DNA of 36,694 nucleotides from Candidatus Uhrbacteria bacterium RIFCSPHIGHO2_02_FULL_53_13 (GTDB lineage: Bacteria > Patescibacteriota > Patescibacteriia > UBA9934 > UBA11717), in assembly GCA_001791035.1 (NCBI GenBank), contig MGDX01000031.1, positions 5,245 to 41,938 on the forward strand, in the 5' to 3' direction. Both the position numbers and the translations under genes were made by a program. Positions 10,496 to 36,694 of this stretch are shown one piece after another. The notes under the pieces are model-generated. The model was not told where the DNA came from. It saw only the letters and a program-made list of their open reading frames with translations, and did not search any database. How positions within the stretch are numbered: the first letter of the stretch is position 1; each line of letters opens with the position of its first letter.

Positions 10496-10526
10496 ACTAT
10501 GAAAGCTATGCCCTCCGTTCGACGGC

Positions 10527-11786
10527 CTATGGGGCCTGTTCCACGGCGCTCTCATCACCTCTTCTGCCTCGAAATAGCTTATTGAGCTCATCCTTCGATG
10601 GGATACCCACTTGCATCCCCGTGATGGATTTGAGATCAACGTTGTTATTCGTACACCACGCAAGCAGGCCATCGAGCTTCTTTACATCAGGTACGCCGAG
10701 GCCAGTCTGCATCCCCGTGATGGATTTGAGATCAACTTTATTGTCTTGGCACCACGCAAGCAGGTCATCGAGCTTCTTTACATCAGGTACGCTGAGGCCC
10801 ATTTGCATCCCCGTGATGGATTTGAGATCGACGTTGTTATTCGTACACCATGTGAGCAGGCCATCGAGCTTCTTTACATCAGGTACGCCGAGGCCCACTT
10901 GCATCCCCGTGATGGATTTAATATCAACGCTGTTATCCTTGCACCACGCAAGCAGGTTATCGAGCTTCTTGGCATCAGGCACGCCAAGGCCACTTTGCAT
11001 CCCCGTGATGGATTTAATATCAACGCTGTTATCCTTGCACCACGCAAGCAGACCATCGAGCTTCTTTACATCAGGCACGCCAAGGCCATTTTGCATCCCC
11101 GTGATGGATTTGAGATCGACCTCGTTGTTTGTGAACCATTCAAGCAGACCATCGAGCTTCTTGACATCAGGCACGCCGAGACCATTCTGCATCCCCGTGA
11201 TGGATTTGAGATCAACGTTGCTGTTCGTACACCACGCAAGCAGACCATCGAGCTTCTTGACATCAGGCACGCCGAGACCATTCTGCATCCCCGTGATGGA
11301 TTTGAGATCGACCTCGTTGTTTGTGCACCATTCAAGCAGACCATCGAGCTTCTTGACATCAGGCACGCCGAGACCATGTTGCATCCCCGTGATGGATTTG
11401 AGAGAAATGTGATGTTGTTTGCAAAGCTCTATGATAGTCTTGACTTCTTCTAGAAACTCACCGTATGACTGTTCGTCAATAGGTCGAGCGTCTGCGTATT
11501 GACAGGCATACATCGATGTGACCGGTGCGGTGTCTTGCTTCTTTGTCACAAGATCTGCAGCACGGTTGATGAGTGCAAATAGTCTTTTGTTAAGATCCTT
11601 GATTTCTTCTTGTTCCATTCCTTTATACTTCTTGTCTAAAAACTTCAGGAGTGTATCCTTGATCACAATATCAGGAATATCTCCCACTTCTCTTTTTGAG
11701 ATACGCGCCAGAAGCCCTTTTCTTCTTTCGAGATTACGAATAAGATATCGGGCTTCCTCCGGTGTTTGTCTTTTTTCAGGGCTCAT
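10527..11786 (-). CDS. Tandem 32-aa helical-repeat protein with a hypervariable residue per repeat; function unknown
   Basis: No signal peptide or TM. Unit LKSITGMQ-X-GLGVPDVKKLDGLLxWCTNNxVD, 8 full copies plus one half copy; ~125-aa non-repeat N-terminus. Confidence 0.95.
   Translation of the reverse strand: MSPEKRQTPEEARYLIRNLERRKGLLARISKREVGDIPDIVIKDTLLKFLDKKYKGMEQEEIKDLNKRLFALINRAADLVTKKQDTAPVTSMYACQYADARPIDEQSYGEFLEEVKTIIELCKQHHISLKSITGMQHGLGVPDVKKLDGLLEWCTNNEVDLKSITGMQNGLGVPDVKKLDGLLAWCTNSNVDLKSITGMQNGLGVPDVKKLDGLLEWFTNNEVDLKSITGMQNGLGVPDVKKLDGLLAWCKDNSVDIKSITGMQSGLGVPDAKKLDNLLAWCKDNSVDIKSITGMQVGLGVPDVKKLDGLLTWCTNNNVDLKSITGMQMGLSVPDVKKLDDLLAWCQDNKVDLKSITGMQTGLGVPDVKKLDGLLAWCTNNNVDLKSITGMQVGIPSKDELNKLFRGRRGDESAVEQAP
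10614..11405. repeat. 96-bp direct tandem repeat inside the CDS, 8 full units plus partial
   Basis: 'catccccgtgatggattt' recurs at exactly 96-bp spacing (10614 to 11382 = 8 x 96). Confidence 0.98.
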
Positions 11787-17193: not shown

Positions 17194-17285
17194 GTCATTG
17201 CGAGCGTAGCGAAGCAATCTATGCTGGCGTAAGATTGCTTCATAGATCGCTTCGCCACGCTCGCAACGGAGCTCACAATGACGGG
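17194..17285. repeat. Short palindromic 'GTCATTGCGAG...GAAGCAATCT' repeat pair
   Basis: gtcattgcgagcgtagcgaagcaatct...agattgcttcatagatcgcttcgccacgctcgcaac...caatgac. Confidence 0.85.
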
Positions 17286-29055: not shown

Positions 29056-29177
29056 GTCATTGCGAGGTCGAGCGGTATGAAGGACGTGCCATTGAGGCAC
29101 GTTCGAACCGTGAGACGGGCACTCCTATGTGCGCCATGCGCACCGGAGTGCCCCGAGCATCAAGCCGCGAAGCAATC
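29056..29177. repeat. Structured intergenic repeat (family B), copy 2, interrupted at its right end by a foldback element
   Basis: gtcattgcgaggtcgagcggtatgaaggacgtgccattgaggcacgttcgaaccgtgagacgggcactcc...gcaccggagtgccccgagcatcaagccgcgaagcaatcta. Confidence 0.9.
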
Positions 29178-29358
29178 TATAGTCGTCACACCATAAAACA
29201 GGATTTAGCATTCTTGAAACGGGATGAAATCCGATGCTCTGGAGAGAGAAAAAACCACAGATGTAGCCGAGCTACATTGAGGATTTTTTCTCTTGAAGAG
29301 CAAGGAGTTCGCCCGTTTCATGAATGATGGAGTGCTGTTTTATGGTGTGACGACTATA
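29177..29358. mobile_element. Foldback/MITE-like palindromic element (family A), copy 1
   Basis: tatagtcgtcacaccataaaacag ... ctgttttatggtgtgacgacta(ta): ~24-bp perfect terminal inverted repeats; whole element folds as one long imperfect hairpin. Confidence 0.85.
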
Positions 29359-29455
29359 AATGCCAGTATGAGATTGCTTCGCGGAGTCTACCCCGAGCAA
29401 AGTCGAAGGGGCTCGCAACGACGGAAAGGGTGCGCTCGCAACGACGGAGAGAAAA

Positions 29456-29504: not shown

Positions 29505-32500
29505 TTAGAAGATGATCGTTCCACCGATAAGTGGAAGGTTGTCCACGAGGTACGAACCGGATACTTCGTCTTCGAAGGCATCCGTGTCGTCCGTGGTGCT
29601 GCCATCGTCGTACCAGACAAGCGAGCTTGGCAAGTAGTCAAGTTCTGTGTTGTCGGCGACGGTAGCGCCCGAGCCACCTCGGTTGCGTCCCAAGTATCCT
29701 CGGGACACATAGAGGGCCGTGGCAGTGTCGTCGTCGATGTTCGTGACAAGCACGATTTCATCGGTTGACGCACAGGTGCCACTCGAGAGACAAACCACAT
29801 CTCCATGAAGCGGTCGGCTTGATCCAGTATCGATCGTCAACGTGGTCGTGTCCTCACCGGTCACGGCACCGTTTACGTCGAAGGCACCGGAATCAATGTA
29901 TGCCGACGCGATTGGATCCGCTGGGATGTCAAAGCGCACCGAGTCATCGTTCGTTGCCGACGCTCCCGTTGAGTCAAACCACAACGAGAAGGTCTTGGTG
30001 GTACCGGCAGCGATCACGAGATCGTCTGCGGCAACCAACTCAAGTTGTACGAAGGCAATCGAAGTGTCTGCGGTTGCTTCACAGTTCGCACCCGTCGAGC
30101 TGAGCAAGTTCCATGCGCTGGAGCTTGTGTCAAGCTCTGTTCCAAGATCCGTGTAATCGTAGAGCGAGAAGTCCGCATCTACCGAGTTACCGGAGACCGC
30201 CGAGCTACACTCGTTCCAGTCAGAACCGGCTGCGGTGGCACCGTTGTTGTCGGTCGAAACCATCTTGAAGATAGCTTCGTCGACCACGACATCCTCGTTT
30301 GAAGACGCCGCCACGGTAAAGCGCAACACTTCGTCAAGACCCGGAACCTTCGCGCCCGATGGGCTGCCAGAAGCCAGGCTGATGGTTGGCTTTGTTTCGT
30401 GAATAACGAATGCCGAGAGACCCGTGTTGCTTGAGGTTGGATCATCGTCATCAAGCACCGATCCTGAACCCTGACCCACGGCTCGGAAGTTATCGTCGTT
30501 CGTGGCATCAAGGAACAGTTCAACTAAGAGATCCTCGCCCGACTGCGCCGATCCGCCAGAATCGCGGTTCGATCCAGGGACGCTTACGGACACCGTCACC
30601 ACCTTTGGTGAGTTCGCAGGAACCAAGAAGTCCAAGCCGTCAAACTTCGCCTCGTTGCCGGACATGAACGCCGTCGCCGTAGCGGTGGCTCCATTGGAAT
30701 CCGGGTAAGAAACGGCCACCGAAGCCACATTGTTGGTATACGTTGTGGCGTTGGTACCGAAGTTGTCGTCTTCAGCCGCTTCCTCGGAAACCGTCAGTCG
30801 TGTGACCAACATGCTTTCGTTGGTTGCGGTGAACTTGAACTTCGATACGACGTTTCCAGATGTGCCAGCAACCAAAATGTCGGCGTTTGGCGAACCTGGA
30901 TCCGGAGCGTATGCGAGCGTGCCGGCCGAAGCGATCGAGATCGCGACCGACGCAACACCTGTGGTCGTGCCCACGGTTGTGCCGAGGGCTGTTCCACCAT
31001 GGTTGACAGCATCGCCTGTAGCCGTGACGCTGTTGCCATCTTCATCAGACGCGACCATATCTGCAGAGACATCGTTCAGTCCCCATGAGAATACGTCCGT
31101 ATCCGTGTCAGATGGGTTCGCCAAGTTACAGTAGACACTCATCACTTCAACCGTACCGGCTGGGACCGTCCAGAGCATGTCATCGAAGACGAAGTTGGCT
31201 CCGCTGTTTGAAGCGGCCGCAGGGCCGTCCAAGAGGGCGCCGTCACCGTCGTAAATGGAACATGAGCTGATGAAGTCCTCAACCTGCGCACCGGTTTCAC
31301 CACCGAGCGTACCCGTGGTTGTGCCGCCTTCATCCGCGTATGCGGAGACTGTGGCACTGCTCACCGTGACATCCGAGCCAACGCCCGCCGTCATGGTGAA
31401 CGCGGCAACGTTCACGTTGCTTGTTCCCTGAACCACCGTGGTGGAAACAGGAGAGCTTGCAAGCGCGACCGTCAACGCGGCCGAACGAGCCGTTCGGTTG
31501 TTCCCGATCAAATCACCCGATGGGATGATGTCGGTTCCAAGCGTCAGGTTGTCGCCGTTCGAATCTTCGATGGTGAGACCCGATACGTCGAGCGTGGCAC
31601 CGAATTCGGTGTCCGCCGTCACATCGTTGTCAATGTCTGCCGTCAACTCAAGATCGTACGTCGTTCCCGCTGTGAGCGTGAAGTCATCCGTAAAATCAAT
31701 CGTCTGGGCACCGTCGCGAGTTCCATCGGAACCACACGCCGTGGTGTTTGCCACACAATCGAGTTCAAGCGGGCTCAAGAGCACACCACTGCCATTGGAA
31801 TGGCGCACCTTGAGATCCTTGAGGTTGCCCTCTCCGTTGGTGTTGACCAACCCATCGCTGTCAAGCGTGGTGTCATCACCCGGAACAAAGGCGTTCGCAA
31901 GACCGTTGTCTTCACCGTACACGATGAAGTCAAGATCTTTCACCGTCACGTTCTGGGCCGAAGTGACCGAGAACGAGAACAGAATAACATCCTGTGAGTT
32001 CGAGTGCACATCGCCGGCTGGAGGGCCGTTGAAGGCAAACGTAACGTCACCGCCCTGGATGGTGCTGAACGAACAGTCGTTCGTCGTAGCCGCCGAGGAC
32101 GTGAAACAGGTGTTCGCGTCATCTTCCGTTGCGGCCGCGGCACCACCGTCGTATCCGCTTCGAGTCACCGACTGGTTGAAGCCGAAGTCGCCTCCGACCG
32201 CCACCAAGTCCGTGTCGCGATCCATCGCGATGGAGATATTTTCAGCAGCTTGACCGCCAATCTTCGCTTTCACGTCGAAGTTGCGGCTGTTGCCCTCTGC
32301 CACCGTGTAAGGAGCCGTGAACGCAAAGTCCACGTAGTCACCGCTGGCGTAGACGCCATCGGCAACTTTGTCCGCGCCCTGGTAGAGCGAGAATGCACTG
32401 TGGTCCGATGCGTTGTTGATCTTCAAGCGCAAGCGCTGAATTTCAGCGTTTTCGGTGCCCGCCGTGACGCGGAACTTACCGATAACCGCATTCTGCTGAC

Positions 32501-33713
32501 CCAAAGATGGGTTCGTGATGGTGCCGGTCTTCGTAATCGTGACCGTACCAACCGAGTTCCCCGAGAACGAGAACGTGTTGCCTTGAACACCGCTCACCGC
32601 GGCTCCGTTGGCCGAAACCACCGAGAAGCTCATGGTGTCGGCTGCGGTCGCGCTCGTGGAGGTTTCAACCGAAACCCACAAGTTGCGTGACTGGCCGTTC
32701 AAGACTTTGAAGTTCAAGTTCGAAAAGGTGACTTGTCGCGTTGAGCTGTTCGCCGAGCGACCTTCCGTCAAGCGCTGTGATCCCTCATAGAGGTACACAT
32801 TGCTGATGTTGGCCGTCGCACCGACGCCACCCAATGCAAGCACCAAGTCATCCAGTTCCACGTCTCCGCCAGAGGCCGAGGCGCGAATCTTCAAGACGTT
32901 CACCCCGTTTGCGCCCTGTGGAAGGGTTGCGCCCGCTGGTGTGTCTGAAGCTGTGGAGAGTGAGAGGCCACCAGCTGGCGTAACGCTGCTGCTGCCATCA
33001 CCCTCAAGGATTTGAGCCGTATCTGCTACCTCATTGCTCTTGGCATTGAGGTCACTGCCCGCCGCAATCGCCGACACCGCCACGGTTGTATTCATGACGT
33101 GTTTGCTTTGCAAGCGGTTTGCTGCCATACCGGCAGAGGACACTTGACGACGCTTGCCGCCCCAGATGAGGAACGTATTGCTCCCATCTGACACGAGCGC
33201 ACCGTCATACAAGTTCGCCGCGGAAGCGAGCGAAACTCCTTCCGTGTAGTCACTGAAGAAGGAATCCGGGACGTCCTGAACGAACGAACCCCAGTTCGCA
33301 CTGCCGTAAAGAGCTGCGGCAACTTCCGGAGATTCAATCCAACGAATGGTGCCGTCGGTTGAGACTGCGTACACCTTCGGGTTGGACTGAATTTTTACCC
33401 AGTAGGAACCTGGGCGATAAGCCACATTTCCTCCAAGAGGAATCGCCGCCAATTCAGAGTCCGAGATCGTCGAGACGCCTGAAAAGTCGGAATACCATGA
33501 GAAGTAAGTCTTCTCGTTTGGGAACGTGTAACGCATGCCGTTTGAACCGTAGTAGTACACCGTTGAGAACGATGTGCCGCGGATCAAGTCACCTGCTGAA
33601 ACAGCACTAGCGCTCAAAGGAGCGAGAGCGGTAGCACCAACTGTCCAGAGGATCGTCATGGCGACTACAGCAAGCGTAAAAATACGCTTCCCAATTGTCG
33701 AATCATTCGCCAT
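29505..33713 (-). CDS. Giant secreted surface (S-layer-like) protein, ~1402 aa
   Basis: MANDSTIGKRIFTLAVVAMTILWTVGATALAPLSASA signal; DLIRGTSFSTVYYYGSNGMRYTFPNEKTYFSWYSDFSGV CPR-type surface domain; long Thr/Ser/Asp-rich beta repeats. Start moved to 33713. Confidence 0.88.
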   Translation of the reverse strand: MANDSTIGKRIFTLAVVAMTILWTVGATALAPLSASAVSAGDLIRGTSFSTVYYYGSNGMRYTFPNEKTYFSWYSDFSGVSTISDSELAAIPLGGNVAYRPGSYWVKIQSNPKVYAVSTDGTIRWIESPEVAAALYGSANWGSFVQDVPDSFFSDYTEGVSLASAANLYDGALVSDGSNTFLIWGGKRRQVSSAGMAANRLQSKHVMNTTVAVSAIAAGSDLNAKSNEVADTAQILEGDGSSSVTPAGGLSLSTASDTPAGATLPQGANGVNVLKIRASASGGDVELDDLVLALGGVGATANISNVYLYEGSQRLTEGRSANSSTRQVTFSNLNFKVLNGQSRNLWVSVETSTSATAADTMSFSVVSANGAAVSGVQGNTFSFSGNSVGTVTITKTGTITNPSLGQQNAVIGKFRVTAGTENAEIQRLRLKINNASDHSAFSLYQGADKVADGVYASGDYVDFAFTAPYTVAEGNSRNFDVKAKIGGQAAENISIAMDRDTDLVAVGGDFGFNQSVTRSGYDGGAAAATEDDANTCFTSSAATTNDCSFSTIQGGDVTFAFNGPPAGDVHSNSQDVILFSFSVTSAQNVTVKDLDFIVYGEDNGLANAFVPGDDTTLDSDGLVNTNGEGNLKDLKVRHSNGSGVLLSPLELDCVANTTACGSDGTRDGAQTIDFTDDFTLTAGTTYDLELTADIDNDVTADTEFGATLDVSGLTIEDSNGDNLTLGTDIIPSGDLIGNNRTARSAALTVALASSPVSTTVVQGTSNVNVAAFTMTAGVGSDVTVSSATVSAYADEGGTTTGTLGGETGAQVEDFISSCSIYDGDGALLDGPAAASNSGANFVFDDMLWTVPAGTVEVMSVYCNLANPSDTDTDVFSWGLNDVSADMVASDEDGNSVTATGDAVNHGGTALGTTVGTTTGVASVAISIASAGTLAYAPDPGSPNADILVAGTSGNVVSKFKFTATNESMLVTRLTVSEEAAEDDNFGTNATTYTNNVASVAVSYPDSNGATATATAFMSGNEAKFDGLDFLVPANSPKVVTVSVSVPGSNRDSGGSAQSGEDLLVELFLDATNDDNFRAVGQGSGSVLDDDDPTSSNTGLSAFVIHETKPTISLASGSPSGAKVPGLDEVLRFTVAASSNEDVVVDEAIFKMVSTDNNGATAAGSDWNECSSAVSGNSVDADFSLYDYTDLGTELDTSSSAWNLLSSTGANCEATADTSIAFVQLELVAADDLVIAAGTTKTFSLWFDSTGASATNDDSVRFDIPADPIASAYIDSGAFDVNGAVTGEDTTTLTIDTGSSRPLHGDVVCLSSGTCASTDEIVLVTNIDDDTATALYVSRGYLGRNRGGSGATVADNTELDYLPSSLVWYDDGSTTDDTDAFEDEVSGSYLVDNLPLIGGTIIF

Positions 33714-33809
33714 AAGGAGAATTTCCTTTCGTATTCGTGATTGATATGTGCAATGCAGGGCTGACCCCTCGACCTTTAGGCATCGCACAGGTTAGAAGTG
33801 ACACCACAC

Positions 33810-33955
33810 GGTGCCGCGAGAGAGCATGGCTTTCTCGCAACTCGGTTTTAGCCGAGTGGGCACCAGCGCGAACGTGCGTCCGCTCTCTCTGATGAATGGG
33901 AGTTGATGAGTCGGTTCCGATCTCCGACCCCTTACCTCCATTCATGAGAGAGAGC
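33810..33955 (-). ncRNA. Candidate structured 5' leader RNA of the surface-protein gene
   Basis: Stem 33882..33902/33936..33955 with a nested GTCGG/CCGAC stem; then GGTGCC/GGCACC closing stem enclosing CTCGG-CTAAAA-CCGAG and GCGAGA-N11-TCTCGC. Confidence 0.5.
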
Positions 33956-33963
33956 GAGCCACG

Positions 33964-35184
33964 TTAATCCGTTGGCGTTTCGATAGGCGATTCGGCGCTA
34001 TCTTCCAACGGTGCTTCGAATCTAACGTTCAACGCTTCGTCGGACGTTTCTTCTTCAGTTGTCGGTTCGTCCATCACATCCGTTTCGATCACTGTTTCAC
34101 TTTCAATCACGACACTCGGTTTGTCGTTGGCTGTTTCCGGAACAATCATCACATCCTCATTGATCACCTCTGAAGCCGTCACGGGTTTTGTGAGCGCAAT
34201 CTCCGCGCTCGCCACGATCAACTCCACGGCGCGCAAATGACGCTGTATGGCGTTCGTCAATTCAAACGCACGGTTGTACCCGCCGCGTGCCGCAAAATCT
34301 TGCGCCCCCGCAACGTCCACATTATGCAACGCTCGACGTTGCGCCGCGATATCAATCTCTATGTCCGTGCGGCCCGAAGCGTTCACAACACGCTCAATCA
34401 AATCCAACCGTCCGGAAAGAACGGTTGTCGTGCCCAAAATATCCCGCACTTCATTGGTGAACTGGCGCGAAAGCTCGCCGGCAGAAACCACCGAGTCGCT
34501 GGCCGTGCTCGACAACACGTTGACCACCTCGGTATGCGCGGCATCTGTACTGCCTTGGGACGCCACTAATGCCGCCGTACTCGTTGCATCGTGCACAGAC
34601 TCGGAAACGGAAATAGCCTGATCGAGCGCGCTCTTAGAATGATCAATGAGCCGCGCAAGCTCAATGGCTTGCGCGTCCGACGGAGACTTCTTCAAATCAT
34701 TTTGCGCGGCTTCAATTTGCTTTTCAAAACCCTGAATTGCCACTTTCACGCGCGCATCTTTGTCGGTCGAACCACGTTCAACAAGCGTTGTAACCTCGTT
34801 CAAACGTCGCGACGCAAATTGCGCGCGCAAACGATTGCGCGCTTCTGTACCAGCAAACGTCAATTGCGCTTGCTCGCTAGCAATTTTGACAGAGTAAAAA
34901 GTATCGCCCGGCAGAGTGTCGAGAGACGCATTCACGGATGTGATCCATCCGCCGAGCATCATCACCACCACTAAACTCACGATCGCGTACGGACGAGCAA
35001 CCATCTCGGTGATGTCATGCGGGAGACGCAAGATGCTATCGAGCAACGAGGACGCCGTTTGTGCGGTCACTGGAGCCTCGAGCATGAGTAACCGCTTGCG
35101 TGTTTCTTCACGCACGCCATCATCCAGCCGCCACGAAGAGCGATTGGAGAGTTCCTTCAAACGTTGTTCAAGGGGAGAGTTCAT
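33964..35184 (-). CDS. DUF5667-type membrane protein, putative anti-sigma-like regulator
   Basis: Single TM (YAIVSLVVVMMLGGWITSV) followed by SLDTLPGDTFYSVKIASEQAQLTFAGTEARNRLRAQFASRRLNEV; overlaps the ECF sigma gene. Confidence 0.8.
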   Translation of the reverse strand: MNSPLEQRLKELSNRSSWRLDDGVREETRKRLLMLEAPVTAQTASSLLDSILRLPHDITEMVARPYAIVSLVVVMMLGGWITSVNASLDTLPGDTFYSVKIASEQAQLTFAGTEARNRLRAQFASRRLNEVTTLVERGSTDKDARVKVAIQGFEKQIEAAQNDLKKSPSDAQAIELARLIDHSKSALDQAISVSESVHDATSTAALVASQGSTDAAHTEVVNVLSSTASDSVVSAGELSRQFTNEVRDILGTTTVLSGRLDLIERVVNASGRTDIEIDIAAQRRALHNVDVAGAQDFAARGGYNRAFELTNAIQRHLRAVELIVASAEIALTKPVTASEVINEDVMIVPETANDKPSVVIESETVIETDVMDEPTTEEETSDEALNVRFEAPLEDSAESPIETPTD

Positions 35185-35729
35185 GTGAAATCGTGTTCAT
35201 CAATGACACGTTTGAGAGATCCGACGGCGCGATGTAGTGTGACGCGCACATTGTTGGGCGTTTTTTGCAGAGCCTCGGCGATTTCGGCAATAGAAAGGCC
35301 GTCCATAAAACGCATCACAATCAGTTCGCGGTAATCTTCGTAGAGGTGATCGAGCGCGATCTCGACGACTTGTAAGTCCGATCGCATTACAATGGACTCC
35401 ATCGTTGAATCGTCCGGCACTTGTGCAGCATCAGCCAAATCGGCGGTTTGCACTTCACGACTCAACATCCGATAATGATCGGCCACGGCTCGTCGCGCTA
35501 CCGTATAGAGATAGGCGCTCAAGTGGCGCACGCGTTGCTCGCACAGAGACTTCCATGCACGTTCGAACACATCAGACTGAATCTCTTGCGCGTCTTCCAT
35601 ACTGCCAACTTTGATGCGAACGAAACGCGTAATACGGTCGGCGTAAGCATCGTAAATTTCCGCGAATGCATGCGTATCATGCCGTGTCCGAATGCGGTGC
35701 AAAAGAAATTGTTCGCGAAGGCGATGCAT
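35181..35729 (-). CDS. ECF-type RNA polymerase sigma factor
   Basis: FAEIYDAYADRITRFVRIKVGSMEDAQEIQSDVFERAWKSL...LYEDYRELIVMRFMDGLSIAEIAEALQKTPNNVRVTLHRAVGSLKRV. Confidence 0.95.
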   Translation of the reverse strand: MHRLREQFLLHRIRTRHDTHAFAEIYDAYADRITRFVRIKVGSMEDAQEIQSDVFERAWKSLCEQRVRHLSAYLYTVARRAVADHYRMLSREVQTADLADAAQVPDDSTMESIVMRSDLQVVEIALDHLYEDYRELIVMRFMDGLSIAEIAEALQKTPNNVRVTLHRAVGSLKRVIDEHDFT

Positions 35730-36034: not shown

Positions 36035-36218
36035 CTATAGTCATCGCACTATGAAACAGGAATTAGCATTTTTGAAACAGAGCGAAGTCCGACGCTCTGC
36101 AGGGAGAAAAAACCGCAGATGTAGCCGTAGCTACATTGAGGATTTTTTCTTCCGAAGAGCTAGGAATTCGCCTGTTTCAAGAATGATGGAGTCCTGTTTC
36201 ATAGTGTGATGACTATAG
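36035..36218. mobile_element. Foldback/MITE-like palindromic element (family A), copy 2
   Basis: ctatagtcatcgcactatgaaacagga ... tcctgtttcatagtgtgatgactatag, 26/27 arm match; loop gatgtagc-cgta-gctacatt. Confidence 0.9.
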
Positions 36219-36247
36219 TACACTACTCACTTGCACTAACTCACCAA

Positions 36248-36529
36248 ATGCCCTCAAACGAACCAATCCGTGTATCCGTTTCCGAGGCCGCTCGGTTATT
36301 TGGCGTGAGTCAGCGAACCGTTCGTCGCGCTATTAAGGATCAAGAGATCACGTACATTGTGGTTCAAGGACGATACAAAGTGAATTTTGAAAGTCTTGTT
36401 CGATGGTCACAGCAACGCACGACGGTTCGCAAAAAACGAGACGCGCAAGGCATCGGTCAATATGTGGATCAATGGAAAATAGGCAATCCCCTATTCTCGC
36501 CGCGCACGCCAAACAAAGACGACAAGTAA
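36248..36529 (+). CDS. Small helix-turn-helix (excisionase/MerR-like) DNA-binding protein
   Basis: MPSNEPIRVSVSEAARLFGVSQRTVRRAIKDQEITYIVVQGRYKVNFESLVRW. ORF-track start lies within the foldback element, so the internal ATG at 36248 is preferred. Confidence 0.85.
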   Translation: MPSNEPIRVSVSEAARLFGVSQRTVRRAIKDQEITYIVVQGRYKVNFESLVRWSQQRTTVRKKRDAQGIGQYVDQWKIGNPLFSPRTPNKDDK

Positions 36530-36605: not shown

Positions 36606-36694
36606 CTATAGTCATCACACTATGAAACAGGAATTAGCATTTTTGAAACAGAGCGAAGTCCGACGCTCTGCAGGGAGAAAAAACCGCAGATGTA
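36606..36694. mobile_element. Foldback/MITE-like palindromic element (family A), copy 3, truncated by window end
   Basis: ctatagtcatcacactatgaaacaggaattagcatttttgaaacagagcgaagtccgacgctctgcagggagaaaaaaccgcagatgta: near-identical to copy 2's left half. Confidence 0.9.

Follow-up and report, generated by a model that had tools for sequence, protein, structure and literature searches.

We conclude, with a probability of roughly three in four, that a gene-less jumping element of 182 bases, of which the genome of a tiny groundwater bacterium (a Patescibacterium of Candidatus Uhrbacteria type) contains about 20 copies, is a MITE with IS630-type ends that is moved in trans and that carries a strand-specific folded hairpin unrelated to its partner IS. 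By its sequence, the element is a non-autonomous MITE of the IS630 (Tc1/mariner) type and as such of a known kind; the unusual part is the interior, which is conserved, strand-specific and found across phyla. Most likely, an IS630 transposase would move the element in trans by cutting at the terminal repeats, with insertion into TA within CTAG-like sites, and this transposase would since have been lost from the genome or be missing from the assembly. Between the repeats, the CCRCA...GAGGA strand of the structured hairpin would be kept folded as RNA or single-stranded DNA, and some factor would probably recognise its asymmetric GNA/GA loops in the element's own life cycle.

The window, i.e., the whole stretch of DNA analysed (36,694 nucleotides; G000:C31:5245-41938), belongs to a genome of 927,564 bases in 41 contigs with 93.8% completeness. 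It contains two full copies and the left part of a third, all on the plus strand. Copy 2 (36036-36217, subfamily A1) is a full 182-bp foldback MITE when the outer TA is counted at each end. Copy 1 (29178-29358, 181 bp, subfamily A2) is full as well and about 85% identical to copy 2, and copy 3 (36607-36694, subfamily A1) is cut where contig C31, and with it the window, ends. A preliminary description of this DNA had located the three sites correctly, but had drawn their extents one base too wide on each side. In copy 2, the left terminal inverted repeat (36036-36061) matches IS630 ends and contributes 26 pairs to helix 1, with the right repeat at 36192-36217. The core hairpin (36107-36148), conserved across phyla, reads AAAAAACC-GCA-GATGTAGC(CGTA)GCTACATT-GA-GG-A-TTTTTT. 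According to the core alignment, its GCA (36115-36117) is one side of a conserved asymmetric GNA/GA internal loop, while GA-GG-A (36138-36142) provides the GA side followed by a conserved bulged A. A second GNA loop, again GCA (36099-36101), has its GA partner at 36154-36155. The core of copy 1 lies at 29249-29289. Further copies were sought genome-wide, as had been suggested, and about 15 full copies (one with a run of N) and 5-7 partial ones were found, several at contig ends. The copies are 81-100% identical (97-100% for subfamily A1, about 85% for A2, and 81% for one older copy) and sit at unrelated, mostly intergenic places.

Copy 1 is inserted within a REP-like repeat. Such repeats (GTCATTGCGAG...GAAGCAATCT) occur at window positions 29056-29178 and 29370-29410, 1567-1813 and 17198-17222, and stretches of 79 bp and 42 bp from 29056-29178 reappear inverted at 1667-1792. 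Between copies 1 and 2, three genes form a row on the minus strand (29505-35729), encoding an ECF sigma factor (35181-35729), a DUF5667 protein (33964-35184) and a protein of 1427 aa that has no match in Pfam (29505-33788). Copy 2 is followed by a small HTH_17 gene (36206-36529, plus strand). Elsewhere in the window, positions 10515-11486 contain eight 96-nt repeats in tandem, whose middle parts are 84-87% alike. They sit in an ORF on the minus strand (10527-11786) and give 32-residue protein repeats with only weak Pfam matches.

That the two full copies and the contig-end copy form one long hairpin, as first claimed, holds far beyond chance. The RNA fold of copy 2 has a free energy of -113.7 kcal/mol compared to a mean of -44.8 for shuffled sequences (z -18.1); the corresponding values are -66 (z -16.8) when copy 2 is folded as DNA and -107.5 (z -14.7) for copy 1 as RNA. 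All three compensatory pairs quoted in the preliminary description are real and correspond to alignment columns 8/177, 15/170 with 18/167, and 44/140. Over 14 full copies, changes on both sides were detected in 16 of 74 pairs (shuffle mean 7.0), and 98.1% of the cells are paired; neither value was reached in any of 500 shuffles. Uncompensated arm changes had been named as possible counter-evidence. They are present, but few (columns 11/174, 13/172, 25/160 and 47/137). The block 'gcgaagtccgacgctctgcagg', which had been put forward as a possible recognition site, makes up only some of the conserved asymmetric features of the hairpin.

The ends of the element indicate how it may move. The terminal repeats are 26-29 bp long, with MITE ends TATAGTC..GACTATA. 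All 14 full copies have TA at both ends, and the outer TA is probably a target duplication. The flanks read C-TA...TA-G in six of the 14 copies (p=1.2e-4), which is a CTAG-like target preference. Such a preference was described for IS630, judging by the title of Tenzen and Ohtsubo (1991) as cited in PMC2170065, and ISY100, a relative of IS630, performs cut-and-paste transposition into TA in vitro with the transposase alone being sufficient (PMC2170065). Searching the end sequences in 96 relatives revealed contig-end repeats of unknown length in one genome (G005) and a 1118-bp element in another (G060). The latter contains the gene of an IS630-family transposase of 347 aa, in which DDE_3 (PF13358, E=1.9e-24) and HTH_33 domains were detected. 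The ends of the 1118-bp element are identical to the MITE ends at 22-25 of 29 positions (23 and 25 when compared to the better MITE end), and the better MITE end is matched at 25-26 of 29 positions in G005 and at 23-26 in G062. A second IS630 (G094) encodes a DDE_3 transposase 54% identical to the first, and its ends, TATAGACATCACACTCCAAAATCGGACT, resemble a second MITE end type of the order and class (e.g., L056, L193, L194). Two MITE end types pair with two IS630 subfamilies. IS630 had been proposed earlier as a candidate source, and these ends, matching at up to 26 of 29 positions, bear this out; a transposase gene with matching ends, which the preliminary description had advised seeking in the genome, was found in relatives of the order and class, but not in the own assembly. 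There, neither PF13358 nor a relative of the partner transposase was detected. The initial remark that the window holds no transposase is thus correct for IS630, to which this check was confined, and extends to the whole assembly. A partner transposase in the same genome is usual for a MITE, but not required. Since the assembly (93.8% completeness) contains no IS630 transposase, movement in this genome would be past, or the gene would lie in the unassembled part. An IS630-type mobility mechanism is well supported by the anatomy of the element. Full copies elsewhere in the order are mostly about 182 bp long, with ends TATAGTCATCACAYTATGAAAYRGGA; the same-family genomes G001-G004 contain none. 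Shortened forms with intact ends (L132, 120 bp; L133, 112 bp; L134, 78 bp) lack the tip or a portion of one arm, and a few longer forms occur in the order as well.

The interior of the MITE is not contained in the 1118-bp IS, which is itself nearly all transposase gene. The interior consists of short helices parted by asymmetric loops rich in purines; close to the tip, 5'-GNA/GA-3' occurs twice, and there are a bulged A and additional loops lower in the hairpin. Scanning 84,980 genomes with the core pattern yielded 53 places in Uhrbacteria, Martelella, Rhizobium and one member of the Geobacteraceae, and close likenesses of the element exist in public Candidatus Uhrbacteria genomes. A downstream GATTT is common to the scan matches although it lies outside the search pattern. 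BLAST searches started from the pattern matches led to copies on Betaproteobacterial plasmids, which have GGATGGGATGC...GCAGACCGCC in common with Uhrbacteria, a stretch outside every pattern used. Among 25 diverse cores, pairing is retained in 96.3% of the cells, and both partners have changed in 10 of 15 pairs. With a first covariance model (R1), the core was detected in 29 of 381 genomes from the class, in 4 of 380 genomes of a phylum-wide sample, in 51 of 117 genomes from the order to which the Geobacteraceae genome belongs (with up to 26 copies) and in 2 of 150 genomes of the order of Martelella. To guard against circularity, a second model (R2) was built from members of the order and class only and then applied to stretches of DNA of the other groups. 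E-values ranged from 2e-11 to 5e-7 for Geobacterales (in 107 kb) and from 1e-8 to 6e-3 for Betaproteobacteria, but must be discounted (about 4400-fold for Geobacterales) because the stretches had been preselected from a larger space by R1, patterns or BLAST. After this discount, the best Geobacterales matches survive, whereas the weakest ones in Betaproteobacteria would not suffice by themselves.

The ends of the elements differ among the groups carrying the core. Further, hairpins of about 130 nt (about 132) without terminal inverted repeats (TIRs) exist in Geobacterales and in one member of the class; hence, the hairpin can occur independently of IS630 ends. Three of these TIR-less hairpins (L237, L239, L257), from three Geobacterales genomes, have nearly identical flanks, which suggests vertical retention at one locus. 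In Martelella, no long end pairs were found in the elements, which measure 265 bp or less; a 265-bp element (G096, e.g., C2:63386-63557) contains two cores in inverted orientation. In another genome (G414), two stretches (L184, L186) have two neighbouring hairpins in opposite orientation, and five (L182-L186) have a common upper hairpin with differing yet self-complementary lower arms; one of the five directly follows an apparent tRNA gene. A search against Rfam covariance models gave no relevant match, and BLAST of a window copy against phages and plasmids returned nothing or chance 31-bp matches to T5-like phages (E=0.6). Name and sequence-word searches detected no description of the core in an open-access library or Rfam.

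Isolated mismatches in the stems were used to distinguish between the two strands. Any G·U seen on one strand appears as A·C on the opposite strand; consequently, both should be equally frequent if both strands were equal or if the arms were copied from each other. With the orientation set by the core and the core itself excluded from the count, we found 36 G·U versus 10 A·C in 40 elements clustered at 80% identity (p=1.6e-4) and 41 versus 7 in an independent set of 31 clustered Geobacterales elements (p=6e-7); clustering lowers, but does not remove, shared ancestry in these counts. The excess of G·U points to one strand (CCRCA...GAGGA) being folded and selected, either as RNA or as single-stranded DNA; in DNA too, G-T is the less disruptive mismatch, and the excess is compatible with both forms. 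The preliminary claim that the folded form is under selection is thereby refined to one specific strand. The excess also argues against cruciforms and against the other option named at that time, arms converting each other. In a version of the latter, the element would be an ordinary IS630 MITE with an unselected fold, its arms being matched by hairpin-templated repair or template switching. The deletions of the tip or of one arm in L132, L133 and L134 do indicate that replication or repair acts on the palindrome. However, copying would erase asymmetric loops, yet the GNA/GA loops, the bulged A and further asymmetries are retained in different phyla, and it has no bias toward G-U over A-C intermediates. 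We therefore give this explanation a slim chance.

The elements show no preferred orientation relative to the genes beside them (12 in the same direction, 15 in the opposite one). This speaks against host read-through transcripts or a transcription-linked mutation bias as the cause of the asymmetry, and selection probably operates within the life cycle of the element itself. A role of the hairpin in host transcripts at each insertion (RNA processing, stability or termination) would resemble what was reported for other MITEs, including Correia and ERIC (reviewed in PMC10969869). The mostly intergenic position of the elements would suit such a role, as would the core with its T-run, which scores as a terminator on the plus strand, and the apparently same neighbouring sequence beside the TIR-less hairpin in three Geobacterales genomes. 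Random gene orientation despite one-strand selection is difficult to reconcile with it, and in the core alignment the T-run shortens to 3-4 in other groups; overall, we regard a host-transcript role as unlikely. No sigma-70-like promoter was detected in copy 2.

A strand-specific fold could also be explained by a REP/RAYT- or IS200/IS605-type system, in which the single-stranded hairpin would be the substrate of a Y1 (HUH) transposase; IS200-type transposition had been considered at the outset. The Martelella element with its two inverted cores is reminiscent of REP pairs, and the genome studied has one RAYT-like Y1 gene (291 aa, G000:C17:56982-57305). However, the hairpin flanks none of the 26 Y1 loci in positive genomes, where the only matches have E >= 0.2, and the hairpin-rich genomes G044, G080 and G414 have no Y1 match. 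In addition, the element ends, TA flanks and matching-end partner fit IS630 cut-and-paste. A Y1/RAYT partner was therefore rejected, and a mechanism of this type is a very remote prospect.

Returning to the MITE carrying an unrelated strand-specific hairpin, a wider interpretation would be an undescribed family of structured hairpins of about 130 nt, RNA or single-stranded DNA, in which only one strand is functional and a bulged A accompanies the repeated GNA/GA loops. This family would have spread over at least four lineages (Patescibacteria, Geobacterales, Alpha- and Betaproteobacteria) by travelling within MITEs that differ in their ends, its fold being read by a common factor needed for propagation. 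We offer this tentatively, at slightly less than even odds. If true, a small parasite can hitchhike on different transposases, and ERIC and other foldback repeats may merit the same strand test, as the count of G·U versus A·C is a simple discriminator between single-strand selection and arm conversion. The IS630 partner renders mobility testable.

In bacterial MITEs, whatever lies between the ends is usually viewed as filler; in the present case, this 'filler' is a strand-specific structure that is conserved and common to phyla, while the ends vary. Like IS630/Tc1-mariner MITEs, e.g., RUP of pneumococcus or the eukaryotic Stowaway, the element is short and gene-less, with IS630-matching terminal repeats and TA flanks. 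In contrast to these, its whole length folds, and its interior is conserved and common to other-ended elements of other phyla. REP/RAYT repeats are likewise hairpins repeated between genes, but are much shorter and linked to Y1, a link not seen for the element at the 26 Y1 loci. ERIC of enterobacteria and Correia of Neisseria are also intergenic, long imperfect palindromes, and have TA as their target; for the element described here, however, a transposase family with matching ends was identified in relatives. Chunjie, a MITE of Geobacter uraniireducens (178-235 bp; PMC10969869), is alike in size and high copy number, occurs in Geobacter and might belong to the same core family.
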